A stretch of 64,000 bases of DNA from Bacteroidota bacterium (GTDB lineage Bacteria > Bacteroidota > Rhodothermia > Rhodothermales > UBA10348), in assembly GCA_022567305.1 (NCBI GenBank), contig JADFHF010000007.1, forward strand, positions 1 through 64,000, in the 5' to 3' direction. Below are positions 46,779 through 61,296 of the stretch, in pieces. Both the position numbers and the translations under genes were made by a program. Positions within the stretch are counted from its first letter, which is position 1. Each line of letters opens with the position of its first letter. Under the pieces are notes generated by a model. The model was given only the letters and a program-made list of their open reading frames with translations. It did no database searches and had not been told where the DNA came from.

Positions 46779-48131
46779 CTAGTCCTCCACCCTACGGATC
46801 GGAATCAGATCGGCTGTTAAGTAACAGTAAAGTTCTCGCCCCAATTCTTGGTTTGTAGCGGCCAAGCAGAGCTGATCCTTGTACGAAATAAGCTCTTGTG
46901 GACGCGAACTGTCTGGGCCTGCCCAGATATCTGTAATCAATTCGGCTACATCGCCGTCGGTCCGCCAGACTTCTGATCCTTCGGCCTCAGTGCGACCGGT
47001 GAAGTACACCCAGCCATCATGTTCGACGAATCCGAAAGGTGAAGATCCAATTGCGCCTTTGTTAATGTCAGCCACTAACTCAGGTTCTACATCAGTAAGA
47101 GTCCACAACTCTTTACCAGTACTGGCATTATTTGCTGAAAAGAAGAGCGCTGTATCGGTCGCGTAGAGAGATTCGGGATGGCTGCCTTCAGGCCCCTCGA
47201 AAATATCACTCACCTGCTCCGCGGTCCCATCCTTGATTGTCCACAACTCTGCTCCATGCTCCAAATCGTTGGCCGCAAAATAAAGAGCGTTTTTATATAC
47301 GGTTAAATACTTTGGGTTTGACGAAGCTGCACCCGGAGCTATATCCCGGATGAGCGATACTTCTCCATTCTCATACTTTCTTAGTTCCGTTCCTTCACTG
47401 TTCGTGAAAGCCGCGAAATAGAGCACGTCTCCGAGAGTAGTAAACTGATCGGGACGTGAGCCGATAGGACCTTCATTGATGTCAGCGACAACATGAATCA
47501 AAGAACCATCGAAGCGGACCAGCTCGGCACCTTGATTATTCACAGTAGCCGAAAACATTAGATTGTTGTCAAAGATGGTTAAGCCAGATGGTGTAGAGCT
47601 CGAGGGACCTTCATTAATATCAGCCACCAAGTCTAGATCTCGTCCGTTCCATCTCCAAAGTTCGACGCCGTAAACTCCGTCATTGGCGCGGAAGTAGAGG
47701 GCCTCCTGAAAAACAATCATTCCGGATGGATGGGAGCTCTCTGGATCACCGCTGAGGTCACGAATGATACGGGCCCGGTTTCCGTCAATGACCCATAACT
47801 CCCGTCCATACTCGTCTTTCAATGCGGAGAAATATAATTTCTCCTTATAGGCGACAAATAGTGCTGGAAGAGAGTCTCCGGATCGAGGAGCGATGTCCGT
47901 CACGGAAATAATGTCGACTCCATCGTACTTGAAAACCTCGGAGCCTAGATCAGCCCCCGTCATCTGCATATAGAGCTCATCTTCAAAAATGTACATCCCG
48001 TTCGGATCGCTTGACTCCGAGCCCTCGTAGAGATCCGTGACAAGACCCAGGCTCGAGTCAGACGGTTGACACCCGACGCCTAAAAGAACGAATACGAGCG
48101 TCCCGACGAAAAAAGAATAATCCTTGCACAT
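46779..48131 (-). CDS. ELWxxDGT-repeat lipoprotein
   Basis: 450 aa. Lipobox LLGVGC near 21. The rest is a run of about nine repeats of roughly 45 residues, each holding YFSAN/LYFAA, a G-x-ELW (GRELWVIDGN, GVELWRWNGR, GAELWTIKDG, GKELWTLTD, GSEVWRTDG) and VADINEGP or IRDIAPGA. This is the ELWxxDGT repeat seen in secreted, probably propeller-like proteins. It is anchored to a membrane and likely faces outward. Function unknown. It converges on hmgA. Confidence 0.85.
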   Translation of the reverse strand: MCKDYSFFVGTLVFVLLGVGCQPSDSSLGLVTDLYEGSESSDPNGMYIFEDELYMQMTGADLGSEVFKYDGVDIISVTDIAPRSGDSLPALFVAYKEKLYFSALKDEYGRELWVIDGNRARIIRDLSGDPESSHPSGMIVFQEALYFRANDGVYGVELWRWNGRDLDLVADINEGPSSSTPSGLTIFDNNLMFSATVNNQGAELVRFDGSLIHVVADINEGPIGSRPDQFTTLGDVLYFAAFTNSEGTELRKYENGEVSLIRDIAPGAASSNPKYLTVYKNALYFAANDLEHGAELWTIKDGTAEQVSDIFEGPEGSHPESLYATDTALFFSANNASTGKELWTLTDVEPELVADINKGAIGSSPFGFVEHDGWVYFTGRTEAEGSEVWRTDGDVAELITDIWAGPDSSRPQELISYKDQLCLAATNQELGRELYCYLTADLIPIRRVED

Positions 48132-52126: not shown

Positions 52127-52370
52127 TACAACTGGAGGGTTATAGAGCCATAGAGTCATCTGGATGAATATCCGAACGTCTTCTCTCCGGACCAGGTAAA
52201 TCTCCTCAGAGTCGTCACGGAGGCACGTAGTGGACGAGCTTCTATTTATTAGTAGATTACCTGAACGTCAAAATACTTATCTCTTTTGCGGTACGCTTAC
52301 CTATTGTTTTCGAGCTGTTCCTCGCCGCGATTCAGCTCCGTCCGCAACCCACGACAGGCAATCGATCAGA

Positions 52371-53183
52371 ATGGCGACCGAAACCCGTCGAATTCTAACC
52401 CTCACGTCCGATTTCGGCAATCGGGATGGGTACGTGGCTGCCATGAAGGGAGTCATACTTTCGATCGCTCCGGACGTGATCATCGTAGATATATCGCATC
52501 AAATAACACCTCAGGATGTCATGGAGGCGGCCCACGTTCTTTCCAGTGCGGCCTCGTGCTATCCGGCAGGCACTGTTCATCTCGTGGTGGTCGATCCCGG
52601 GGTTGGCACCGATCGAAGGTGCGTCGCGCTTGAGCAAGGGGGCCATTTTTATGTCGGCCCTGACAACGGGATATTCTCGCTTCTATTGAAGAACTCGGTT
52701 CCGGATCGCATCATCGAACTCGACCGACCCCAGTTCTGGAGAACCCCTGAACCAAGCAAAACCTTTCACGGGAGGGACATTTTTGCCTCCGTAGCTGGGC
52801 ATCTTGTAAGCGGGCGTATACTCGACGAGTTGGGATCAACGATTCTGGATATCCGGACCCTGCACTGGGCCATGCCGATTTCGGACGATCAAGGAATCCA
52901 GGGATGGGTAGTGCACGTAGACGGTTTCGGTAATTGCATCACGAATATTGTGCGTGCCGAATTCGAGGAGCTCCAACACGGTCGGGCGTTCAAGTGTTAC
53001 GTAGGTAACGCGATACTTGACGGGATGCAGATGACATATTCCGATACTTCTCCGGGTGATATTCTGGTGCTCTTCAACAGTGATGATTTTTTAGAAGTCG
53101 CCATCAATCGTGGTAACGCATCTTCAATGATGGACATTAAGAAAGGAACCAGCATCAATGTGATTTTTAGCGGGGATAAGTAA
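52371..53183 (+). CDS. SAM hydroxide adenosyltransferase (DUF62 family)
   Basis: 270 aa from the ATG at 52371; the longer frame from 52230 adds an unrelated N-terminus. Motifs of the duf62/fluorinase-like family are plain: LTLTSDFGNRDGYVAAMKG, VDISHQITPQDV, HLVVVDPGVGTDRR, VGPDNGIFS, TFHGRDIFASVAGHL, then HVDGFGNCITNI. The enzyme hydrolyses SAM to adenosine and methionine. It is followed 25 bases later by the sigma-like fusion gene. Confidence 0.93.
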   Translation: MATETRRILTLTSDFGNRDGYVAAMKGVILSIAPDVIIVDISHQITPQDVMEAAHVLSSAASCYPAGTVHLVVVDPGVGTDRRCVALEQGGHFYVGPDNGIFSLLLKNSVPDRIIELDRPQFWRTPEPSKTFHGRDIFASVAGHLVSGRILDELGSTILDIRTLHWAMPISDDQGIQGWVVHVDGFGNCITNIVRAEFEELQHGRAFKCYVGNAILDGMQMTYSDTSPGDILVLFNSDDFLEVAINRGNASSMMDIKKGTSINVIFSGDK

Positions 53184-53208: not shown

Positions 53209-54372
53209 ATGGGTCCCAACCCGGCTCATTTGGATCAGCTATTTTTAATTGCGCAGTTCATCACCAGGGACGCTGACCACGCGGCTCGTTTGGTCGACAG
53301 CATGTATAAAAGTATCGATGCGGATTCCAGTGCTTCGGAGGTCTCGCTGGAAGGGCTGGTCAACCGATTGCTCGCTATCGCTGACTCACTGGACCGTCGT
53401 TCGGAAGATAACCGGAGTCCGGGCGATCATTCCGAACAAGCCCGGAGGCATGAATCTGAACAATTTCTCGCATCCAGTGTCCGGCTTCAGTTTCTTCTCC
53501 TCACCCCGCGCGACCGACTGGAACTGTGGCGTTGCGTCGAATTCGATATGCCAATCGCCCCTGATCAGAATGCACTTGACGCCTTTAAGGATCAGCTTCT
53601 CTCCAGTCTAGATACGCATCAGGGCTTTGTGTTCGGGAATCTCGTTACGCGCGAAGCCGTTGCGAGTGCTTTAAAAGCATACTGGAACTCAGCCTTCATT
53701 CCGGTTCCTCCTACACTCCGATCCGTAGTCGAATCCGGAGATCGGCTTCGTAAGCCGGAAGCCGCGCGGCGAAATCGCCGCGTTTCAGCTCGCCCGACGC
53801 GTAAAAATCCGACTCGGGAGAGGCCAAATCGAGTTAACCGGGTTATTTTATATACCTGGGTTATTCTGGCGGCAAGCGCGATAGGATATCTTCTTATGCG
53901 TGTTGGTACACCGACACCTCCTTCAAGCGACATCCTAGAGCTTTCTCTGTCGGTGGCAGACGACGTAGATATTACGTTCCATACGGGAAATGCCGAACAA
54001 GCTGAACGATTTATTGCTGATCGCCTGGGTTGGCGCTTATCCACACCGGTAATCACTCAAGCGTCGCTTCTGGGGATCAGCTTTACAGAAATCCTTGACT
54101 CCATCGAATTGCCGGTATTGGTCTTCACCGATAATGAAGACCATTCAGAATTTCCCGTATTCGTATTCTCCTACAAATTTCTTGAAAACCACCGAGATCG
54201 CTTCCGTCTCGCGAGAGGAACTCTCCGACAAATCCAGGAATCAGCCGGATTCGACATCCACGAGTTGGACAGCAGAACGGCGGTCGTTTGGAGAGATAGG
54301 GACGACATTTTTGTCGCATTTGTCGAAGGAAGCGGAACGGATTTTCAAGCCCGAATCATCGTCCGTTCCTGA
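53209..54372 (+). CDS. Membrane protein: ECF-sigma-like N-terminus fused to anti-sigma-like C-terminus
   Basis: 387 aa from the ATG at 53209 (ribosome site AAGGA eight bases before); a TTG at 53188 is the alternative. Residues 8-36 (LDQLFLIAQFITRDADHAARLVDSM, then YKSI) look like sigma-70 region 2, and VRLQFLLLTPRDRLELWRCVEF (near 92-113) like the start of region 4, but the DNA-reading part is not obvious. After a basic linker there is one membrane helix (VILYTWVILAASAIGYLLM). The outer part (DITFHTGNAEQAERFIADRLGW, then LLGISFTEILDSIELPVLVFTD) recalls the sensor domain of Bacteroidota anti-sigma factors. These are motif-level impressions, not search results. Confidence 0.55.
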   Translation: MGPNPAHLDQLFLIAQFITRDADHAARLVDSMYKSIDADSSASEVSLEGLVNRLLAIADSLDRRSEDNRSPGDHSEQARRHESEQFLASSVRLQFLLLTPRDRLELWRCVEFDMPIAPDQNALDAFKDQLLSSLDTHQGFVFGNLVTREAVASALKAYWNSAFIPVPPTLRSVVESGDRLRKPEAARRNRRVSARPTRKNPTRERPNRVNRVILYTWVILAASAIGYLLMRVGTPTPPSSDILELSLSVADDVDITFHTGNAEQAERFIADRLGWRLSTPVITQASLLGISFTEILDSIELPVLVFTDNEDHSEFPVFVFSYKFLENHRDRFRLARGTLRQIQESAGFDIHELDSRTAVVWRDRDDIFVAFVEGSGTDFQARIIVRS

Positions 54373-54405: not shown

Positions 54406-55800
54406 CTACGAATGGGACTGAGGAAGCGTTATGCGGAACGTCGTTCCTTCATCCGGTCGAGAGTGCAACAGGATCAAGGATCCTCCGTGATAATCCTCTA
54501 CAATTCTGCGGGCCAGACTCAGACCCAGTCCCCATCCGCGTTTCTTGGTACTGTACCCGGGCCTGAATACGTTTTTCCATTGTCTTCGGTCGATTCCCTT
54601 TCCATTGTCGGCGACATCGATGATCACCTTTCCATCCAACTTCTTTGTGGAAATGTTGATGATTCCGTGGTCAGAAGCGATGGCATCCAGCGCGTTTTTC
54701 AACAGGTTTTCGATGACCCACTCGAAGAGTTCTGCGTTGAGTTGCACCTTGATCTCCGCAGGGATATCGATCTGCAACACAACCTGCTTCCCACTCTGAG
54801 GCAATCTCCTCCTCATGTACTCCGAGATATTCTCGATGACGGGTTTGAGGCTCTGCTCGTCTAGTTTCGGTAGAGAACCGATACCTGAAAATCGACTCGT
54901 GATACGGGTCAGCCGCTGTATGTCTTTTTCAATTTCATCGTACGCCTGTTGCTGATCCTGGTCCGTTCCTTCCTTCATTCTCAACATTTCCAGCCATCCC
55001 ATCAGACTGGATATCGGTGTGCCCAGTTGATGGGCCGCTTCCTTGGCCATCCCCACCCATAGACTCTTTTGCTCGCTTGAGCGCACATAGGAAAAGCCAA
55101 CGTATCCGACGAGAACGAATAGTCCGACAAATCCGAGCTGGATATACGGAAACCAGCGAACGGCTGTCACTAATGGTGATTCACCGTAGTGCATTTTCTG
55201 GTTCAGCGTGTCACTTGGAAACGAGACAACGATAGGAATTGGACGGTGAACCGCGTCCATTTCTCGCTGAATACTTACCAGGCTCGCCCGAATTCGTTCG
55301 TACTTGTCTGGATCGACAGCCCGAATAGAATCCAGCTCGGAAAGGGATTCTGGTTCGATCGGCAGATTTCTCCAGATGGTGGCGGTACCGAGTAATGAAT
55401 CCTCTAGAATAGCCGGTATATCAAACGTATTGGGTTCAAGAAACGCACTAAGAATAAAAGTCAGGTCGCTCGCGGGTGGCATGCTCTGCGCCCACACGAC
55501 CGCCTGTCGAAATCGATTGCGTTTCGCCTCGCCAATGGCGCCTGGCAACGCTGACTCGGAAACCTGGGATAGCTGATTCTCTAGTTCCCGGAGTTCACTC
55601 TGGAACGGATTGACGGAACCTGCTTGGGCCACCTTTGGCACCTGTTCCAGAGCACTTGCCCAAAGTTGTATGATAGAAGTTTCCTGGCTCCGAAGACGAT
55701 CGGCCAGGTCTTTGGTGTACCACAGCGACGATACGGCTATCGCAACGGCAAATATAATCAACCCCAGCTTCAGGTTGACAGATACACGGTAGGCTTTCAT
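54406..55800 (-). CDS. Sensor histidine kinase
   Basis: 464 aa from the ATG at 55800. Membrane helices near residues 8-28 and 225-245 frame a periplasmic sensor region of about 190 residues. The cytoplasmic part has the H-box KEAAHQLGTPISSLMGW, N-box NLLKNALDAIA, and G-boxes DNGKGID and GWGLGLSLARRIVEDYHGG. The ATP site is intact. No response regulator lies next to it, so it is an orphan in this window. The Q after the phospho-His (HQLGTP) is the variant seen in many Bacteroidota kinases. Confidence 0.93.
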   Translation of the reverse strand: MKAYRVSVNLKLGLIIFAVAIAVSSLWYTKDLADRLRSQETSIIQLWASALEQVPKVAQAGSVNPFQSELRELENQLSQVSESALPGAIGEAKRNRFRQAVVWAQSMPPASDLTFILSAFLEPNTFDIPAILEDSLLGTATIWRNLPIEPESLSELDSIRAVDPDKYERIRASLVSIQREMDAVHRPIPIVVSFPSDTLNQKMHYGESPLVTAVRWFPYIQLGFVGLFVLVGYVGFSYVRSSEQKSLWVGMAKEAAHQLGTPISSLMGWLEMLRMKEGTDQDQQQAYDEIEKDIQRLTRITSRFSGIGSLPKLDEQSLKPVIENISEYMRRRLPQSGKQVVLQIDIPAEIKVQLNAELFEWVIENLLKNALDAIASDHGIINISTKKLDGKVIIDVADNGKGIDRRQWKNVFRPGYSTKKRGWGLGLSLARRIVEDYHGGSLILLHSRPDEGTTFRITLPQSHS

Positions 55801-55890
55801 AGGTGATCCACAATCGTGTGACGCTAGCATTCCAGAGAGGAAATGTACGTCAACACGAGGAACTGGCTCCTGAACCAGGACTTTCTGTGG

Positions 55891-57355: not shown

Positions 57356-57694
57356 CTACTTGTAACTCTCAACAGCCTCTTTTACGGAATCGAAATGTTT
57401 GAAGACCGTAATCAACTTCGTGATGACCAGCAACGACTGAATCCGATCCGCTACATTGGCCAATCGCAAATCGCCGCCCGCATTACGCATGGTCGTCATT
57501 CCACTGATGAGCATCCCAAGTCCACTTGAGTTCATGAATTTTACTTTCGCGAGATCGACAACCACATTGGCTTTGTTGTTCTCTTTCAACTCATGCAGGG
57601 TGTCATGGAGTTTGGATCCGTCAGGACCGCCCATGATGTTGCCTTTCAATGTGATGACAACCGAATTATAGCGTTCGTCAACGTTGTAGTTCAT
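57356..57694 (-). CDS. STAS-domain anti-sigma factor antagonist
   Basis: 112 aa. The STAS fold is clear: VVITLKGNIMGGPDGSKLHDTLHEL, VVVDLAKVKFMNSSGLGMLISGMTTM (the SS pair holds the phosphorylatable serine) and LRLANVADRIQSLLVITKL. Such proteins relieve an anti-sigma kinase when unphosphorylated. No cognate kinase or sigma gene is next to it. It lies between purA and secF on the minus strand. Confidence 0.92.
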   Translation of the reverse strand: MNYNVDERYNSVVITLKGNIMGGPDGSKLHDTLHELKENNKANVVVDLAKVKFMNSSGLGMLISGMTTMRNAGGDLRLANVADRIQSLLVITKLITVFKHFDSVKEAVESYK

Positions 57695-60741: not shown

Positions 60742-61296
60742 CTATGGGCCAAGCGGTTGGGACGACGACCTGAGAAATCGGAATGCGATGTGGCACGGAG
60801 GAACTTCAATCAGCCGGTCTTTCGCATCTTCACTGAAACCAGCCTGCGCGCTGGATATCTGATACGCCTTTGAGACGCGGGGACTCTGAGCGGTCGCGGT
60901 CTGACTACGTGCCTCTGCTTTAAGGAAGCCTGGAAGAATCGCTTCTCCGACGAATTGAACAAACTGAAAGCGAAGTTCCTGGCTTAGACGATCAGTAGAG
61001 TGCTCAGCACTCTGAATGGTTTCTACAGACCCAGATTCCCTTTTTGCATTCTCCAATTCAGCCAGAAAAGAAGACAGAAACTCGTCGAAGGTGCGAGCTC
61101 CACGTTCCGAGGCAAGATCCAAGGCACGTTCCACATCAGGCTCTGCCGCTTCCGGCAAATGAAGGCGAAGCCAATCCGCATATTGCGTGCCCATGCCGTC
61201 GGCCGTGGCCGCGGGAGACACAAGGACCGCTCCCAGACAAACCGTCAAGAGAGCGGCGAAAAAGCGTACGACAGATGTGTTCCGAAGTGAATCCAT
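60742..61296 (-). CDS. Secreted protein of unknown function upstream of secD
   Basis: 184 aa. Signal peptide (VRFFAALLTVCLGAVLVSPAATA). The middle is helical and polar (LDLASERGARTFDEFLSSFLAELENA). I recognise no family. It lies 159 bases before secD on the same strand. The gap 60583-60741 holds no gene I can support. Confidence 0.6.
   Translation of the reverse strand: MDSLRNTSVVRFFAALLTVCLGAVLVSPAATADGMGTQYADWLRLHLPEAAEPDVERALDLASERGARTFDEFLSSFLAELENAKRESGSVETIQSAEHSTDRLSQELRFQFVQFVGEAILPGFLKAEARSQTATAQSPRVSKAYQISSAQAGFSEDAKDRLIEVPPCHIAFRFLRSSSQPLGP

Follow-up and report, generated by a model that had tools for sequence, protein, structure and literature searches.

Among the genes of the window, that is, the whole 64,000-nucleotide stretch of DNA analyzed here, one encodes a protein that very probably arose when a SigR/SigH-type ECF sigma factor and a membrane anti-sigma factor, two partners that normally make up a bacterial stress switch, became joined in one chain. 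Its three-part anatomy, comprising a sigma-like part, a transmembrane (TM) helix, and a sensor, is practically certain. Since the sigma half has been selectively eroded and is gone in at least three families, the fusion protein was concluded not to be an active sigma factor; as far as the sequences indicate, it is probably not a promoter-recognizing sigma, and for the fusions of the window's lineage this appears nearly certain. Taken as a whole, the data seem best explained, and we hold this with modest confidence, by a fused sigma/anti-sigma descendant that no longer selects promoters and now serves as a membrane-tethered sigma mimic. Living intermediates document the path from a transcription switch of two genes to a single membrane protein, which then lost the transcription role and kept the sensor.

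The ORF encoding the fusion protein is intact, with an ATG start, an AAGGA motif about 8 nt upstream, and a stop codon; it starts 25 bases past a SAM hydroxide adenosyltransferase (SAM_HAT) gene and is followed by a convergent histidine kinase gene (Table 1). In a single-sequence search, 49 of 60 relatives were found to carry homologs as one open frame with no internal stops, and a sensor-domain profile located them in 89 of the 114 genomes that represent the order (Rhodothermales-like), single-contig genomes included; some members seem to belong to cultured species. This conservation of a single open frame, also in single-contig genomes, indicates that the ORF is neither a chance product nor an assembly artefact. 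An origin by assembly error or frameshift was likewise rejected, as the fusion occurs in complete genomes. At four loci (L011, L028, L029, and L071), the automatic choice picked a wrong ORF or one with an over-long start; these were dropped, or the homolog was found by profile. No second copy of the sensor domain was found in the window's own genome. Residues 212-230 form the sole strong hydrophobic segment of the protein (mean hydropathy 2.05), in agreement with the membrane helix proposed in the initial annotation. A strongly basic stretch lies just before this segment in the sequence, and because of this charge bias the protein is predicted to have its N-terminus inside and its C-terminus outside.

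Table 1. Coordinates of the fusion gene, its parts, and its direct neighbors in the window
Feature	Position	Strand	Basis or remark
Fusion protein CDS, 387 aa	53209..54372	+	ATG start, stop included; ORF list and conservation
Degenerate sigma2-like part, residues ~6-62 (HLDQLFLIAQFITRDADHAARLV...)	53224..53394	+	Family-level matches and alignment
Sigma4-like remnant, residues ~85-135	53461..53613	+	Alignment to stand-alone sigma; residue counts
Linker; conserved PVPPTLR motif, basic stretch next to the membrane, anti-sigma domain not detected	53614..53832	+	hhalign
Single transmembrane helix, residues ~209-232	53833..53904	+	Hydropathy
Extracytoplasmic sensor-type domain, residues 239-387 (149 residues)	53923..54369	+	Homologous to anti-sigma C-termini of sister orders
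SAM hydroxide adenosyltransferase (Pfam SAM_HAT_N/C)	52230..53183	+	Start near 52371 likelier
Convergent histidine kinase	54406..55830	-	Homolog convergent to stand-alone sigma in sister orders

The sigma ancestry of the N-terminal half was recognized at the family level. Alone, the window protein showed no match in Pfam or NCBIfam and nothing significant among PDB sequences; among ten homologs, six matched Sigma70_r4_2 (best 1.3e-6) and three PhyR_sigma2 (1.8e-7), and the homologs also matched many ECF models, with the PhyR model among their best matches (2.4e-13). The family profile matched solved ECF sigma factors at 1.2e-10. When the N-termini of nine fusions were compared with stand-alone sigmas by profile, the probability reached 99.1% (E=1.5e-18, 151 columns), and a sigma-part profile from which the window protein had been left out still recovered the window N-terminus (1.8e-14) in a set of 1344 ORFs. 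Direct profile comparison of the window lineage (seq­uences of 7 members) with the stand-alone sigma gave an E-value of 1.3e-4; because its probability reached only 54%, the relation of the window protein to sigma is transitive, via its homologs. ECF membership, with sigma2 and sigma4 homology, thereby applies to the family, and to the window protein through its homologs only. The degenerate ECF-sigma-like N-terminal part suggested in the initial annotation is borne out at this family level, and the profile searches that it recommended succeeded for both the N- and C-terminal parts of the family, but not for the window N-terminus alone. Structure prediction, also recommended there, was uninformative: low-confidence models from 2-row alignments had mean pLDDT values of 49 and 42, and Foldseek with these models returned nothing below E 0.1. 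Mycobacterial SigE, ranked fourth by Foldseek for the full-length model (E 0.18), was not counted as evidence.

Profile scores, phylogeny, and gene order place the origin of this half in a particular sigma factor. The sigma-part profile scored the SigR/SigH-type sigma of sister orders at 64-81 bits, and the other ECFs tested, including 19 from the window's own genome, at ≤34 bits. In the tree, a branch with support of 97/93 parts the fusion and the stand-alone sigma from 32 other ECFs, and the fusion is monophyletic (support 100/100). On these scores and this tree, an origin from another ECF of the same genome was rejected. The best match of the sister-order stand-alone sigmas is the SigR/SigH model (TIGR02947, 2.4e-57, below the equivalog cut-off). 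At E<1e-35, the stand-alone sigma was found in 123 of 245 genomes of the class and in none within the order; about 131 genomes fall outside the order, and the 123 are among those. Thus, a whole order gave up a sigma factor kept by nearly all sister-order genomes, and the fusion stands in its place. In 4/4 sister genomes examined, the stand-alone sigma is convergent to a homolog of the window's histidine kinase (37-39% identity over ~460 residues), from which it follows that the fusion occupies the sigma's own ancestral locus. The kinase lies just downstream of the fusion in 15 of the 20 loci compared. This kinase is a membrane protein; no response regulator adjoins it among the genes examined, and throughout the class it keeps its place next to either the fusion or the stand-alone sigma.

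The C-terminal half of the fusion is homologous to anti-sigma factors from sister genomes (E 5.0e-27 and 2.4e-26), which confirms the anti-sigma-type extracytoplasmic sensor postulated earlier, although the domain itself has no match in Pfam or PDB. Outside the order, 67 genomes of the class were found to carry it, and its invariant residues are kept throughout the order. Family f16 has it at the C-terminal end of an anti-sigma factor with a zf-HC2 domain (Pfam 2e-12 and 5.9e-9), and the gene for this factor overlaps the stand-alone SigR/SigH-type sigma gene at its end; this anti-sigma matches an anti-sigma model (2.9e-12) and RsrA (2.5e-9). In other sister families the sensor is unlinked to sigma, and in one case its N-terminal part is RseA_N-like (1.3e-4, just under the cut-off). 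The fusion shares with class I membrane anti-sigma factors the TM segment and a homologous extracytoplasmic domain; a cytoplasmic anti-sigma domain was not found. The fusion family gave no Pfam match to an anti-sigma domain of the zf-HC2 or RseA_N type, and a comparison of the linker with anti-sigma domains was not significant (hhalign E 0.086, probability 0.7%). Since the family combines a sigma part, a TM helix, and an anti-sigma C-terminus, we interpret it as a sigma/anti-sigma pair that has fused and in which the anti-sigma domain can no longer be detected. Pairs of the SigR/SigH-RsrA type are the parental kind; however, RsrA is soluble, whereas the sister-order anti-sigma has a TM segment and an extracytoplasmic domain, and in this order both genes are one. 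The simplest history is a fusion inside an overlapping sigma/anti-sigma operon such as that of f16, with later loss of the anti-sigma domain. The profile comparisons, the tree (97/93), the locus, and the overlapping pair in f16 all uphold the derivation from a sigma/anti-sigma gene pair that had been proposed from the DNA alone.

Regions 2.4 and 4.2 of sigma factors read the -10 and -35 elements. We scored erosion on residues invariant in six stand-alone sigmas, across nine fusions. About half of the sigma-invariant residues are retained in the core (53% for regions 2.1-2.2, 51% for 4.1), and far fewer at the DNA contacts (17% for 2.4, 27% for 4.2). The net charge falls from +5 to +8 in the stand-alone sigmas to 0 to +2 in the fusions for region 2.4, and from +2 to +3 to -3 to 0 for region 4.2. 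None of the nine fusions keeps the invariant RS in the recognition helix of 4.2 or the N, IN, Y, and R of region 2.4, and the promoter-contacting residues conserved in ECF sigma factors are accordingly for the most part lost. Five more eroded members, the window protein included, keep on average 7-33% of the sigma-invariant residues by region (7% in 2.4 and 10% in 4.2). In the window protein, the sigma2-like part HLDQLFLIAQFITRDADHAARLV can be aligned to HLDAIYNFALRLTSDPNDAEDLV of the stand-alone sigma, and in the sigma4-like remnant the 4.1 core is still recognizable (RDRLELWRCVEF). The helix-turn-helix that was to be sought in region 4 is mostly gone from 4.2, and a promoter scan of the locus gave no more than chance. 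The sigma part is constrained in a Rhodothermus-type pair, as shown by dN/dS of 0.13 for sigma2 and 0.09 for sigma4 (sensor 0.04), and the sigma2 part of two window-family genomes gave ~0.10; the small number of pairs, whose dS is close to 1 or higher, limits all such ratios. In most pairs compared, the sensor has changed less rapidly than the cytoplasmic part.

Single-chain sigma/TM/anti-sigma proteins have been described before, including Pseudomonas putida IutY (ECF243), ECF48, ECF52, ECF53, and some ECF36 members (PMC8999054), so that the claim of the initial annotation that the configuration is undescribed does not stand. The fusion shares with these hybrids one chain of an ECF sigma domain, a membrane segment, and an anti-sigma-derived extracytoplasmic domain. 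The IutY-type hybrids are working or presumed working sigmas, kept silent by the anti-sigma part of the same chain until proteolysis releases them (PMC8999054). In contrast, the fusion has eroded DNA-contacting regions and no anti-sigma domain that could be found, and its sigma part has been dropped in several lineages. A loss focused on DNA contacts with the core kept resembles the sigma-like domain of PhyR, which combines an ECF sigma fold with degenerate promoter-contacting regions (PMC8103513); for the fusion this likeness is one of sequence. PhyR, a known sigma mimic, is a soluble response regulator that binds NepR in the alphaproteobacterial general stress response (PMC8103513). Unlike PhyR, the fusion is membrane-tethered, derives from a SigR/SigH-type sigma by tree and locus, and lacks a receiver domain, which was found in no family member scanned; any PhyR-like mechanism would be an analogy. 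A partial literature search found no membrane-tethered sigma derivative without promoter contacts that replaces a conserved sigma across an order, and the combination of a single-chain hybrid with sigma mimicry looks new. If the mimic works, sigma mimicry extends beyond soluble response regulators.

As a sigma mimic, the fusion protein might operate as follows: the sensor would respond to an envelope condition, the TM helix would relay its state to the sigma-shaped cytoplasmic part by a conformational change or regulated cleavage, and this part would dock a sigma-binding partner, either an anti-sigma domain or core RNA polymerase, without starting transcription. Because no partner was identified and some lineages are without the sigma part, we regard such docking as possible rather than probable. 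The four zf-HC2 proteins of the window's own genome adjoin, by coordinate, ECF genes of their own, which counts against the mimic. A more specific version, in which the old sensor controls a promoter-blind mimic that titrates another anti-sigma or core RNA polymerase, so that the protein would be a membrane-anchored anti-anti-sigma, is rather unlikely. If true, it would represent a one-component transmembrane counterpart of PhyR, ancestral to the order and lost piecemeal in some families.

The main rival to the sigma mimic treats the sigma-like part as a dispensable or repurposed stalk and places the function in a single-pass TM protein with an envelope sensor or binder, co-produced with SAM_HAT; we consider this conceivable, yet somewhat doubtful. 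The sigma half was lost, with the TM-sensor kept, in at least three families. In f14, f9, and f12 it is missing or replaced by a short or low-complexity Pro/acid-rich tail, while the TM helix, the sensor, and SAM_HAT persist, which means that the conserved function does not need the sigma half in those three families. The slower change of the sensor in most pairs points the same way, as does the position of SAM_HAT directly upstream of the fusion in 20/20 loci compared, commonly with a 4-base overlap. However, SAM_HAT is present in 12/12 class genomes checked and is located elsewhere in sister orders, so the pairing may be merely positional, and the gene also occurs without the fusion: at two f15 loci, L148 (1489-3440) and L149 (2-1956), the fusion gene is missing altogether, with SAM_HAT and the kinase overlapping end to end, and the f14 genome G039 has nearly the same arrangement with a gap of 32 between the two genes. 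Moreover, in members that still have the sigma-like part, its core positions are retained and purifying selection acts on it. That the sigma resemblance of the window lineage is merely historical and the gene is heading for loss as in f15, where it has already gone, would suit the low retention in the five more eroded members; this is improbable, as nearly all other genomes of the order have the gene (89/114), the invariant residues of the sensor are kept order-wide, and the sigma2 part of the two window-family genomes is constrained (dN/dS ~0.10). Still less credible is an active single-chain hybrid of the IutY/ECF52 type, in which a functional sigma would stay membrane-bound until released by proteolysis. 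The order of parts is identical, IutY is activated in this way (PMC8999054), and some fusions keep KAWLF and an RxLLxLCDVE core; nevertheless, the 4.2 and 2.4 contact residues are absent from all nine fusions, the charge of 4.2 is reversed, no anti-sigma domain to silence the sigma was detected, and the window lineage is eroded even further.

Three f4 versions, at L111 (5323-6273), L112 (6087-7037), and L113 (1044-2000), have the same TM-sensor preceded by a different and shorter N-terminal part containing a helix-turn-helix-like stretch (FSTQEMADCLNVKEATILRFLEE); this part is a sigma remnant that has diverged strongly or else a new domain. Elsewhere in the window, two ORFs at 60742-61296 (-) and 46779-48131 (-) gave no Pfam matches at 0.001, and some related loci contain homologs of them. 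Only a few genes separate the fusion from a STAS-domain protein with an anti-sigma-antagonist type fold (57356-57694, -), homologs of which occur in 12 of 20 related loci.
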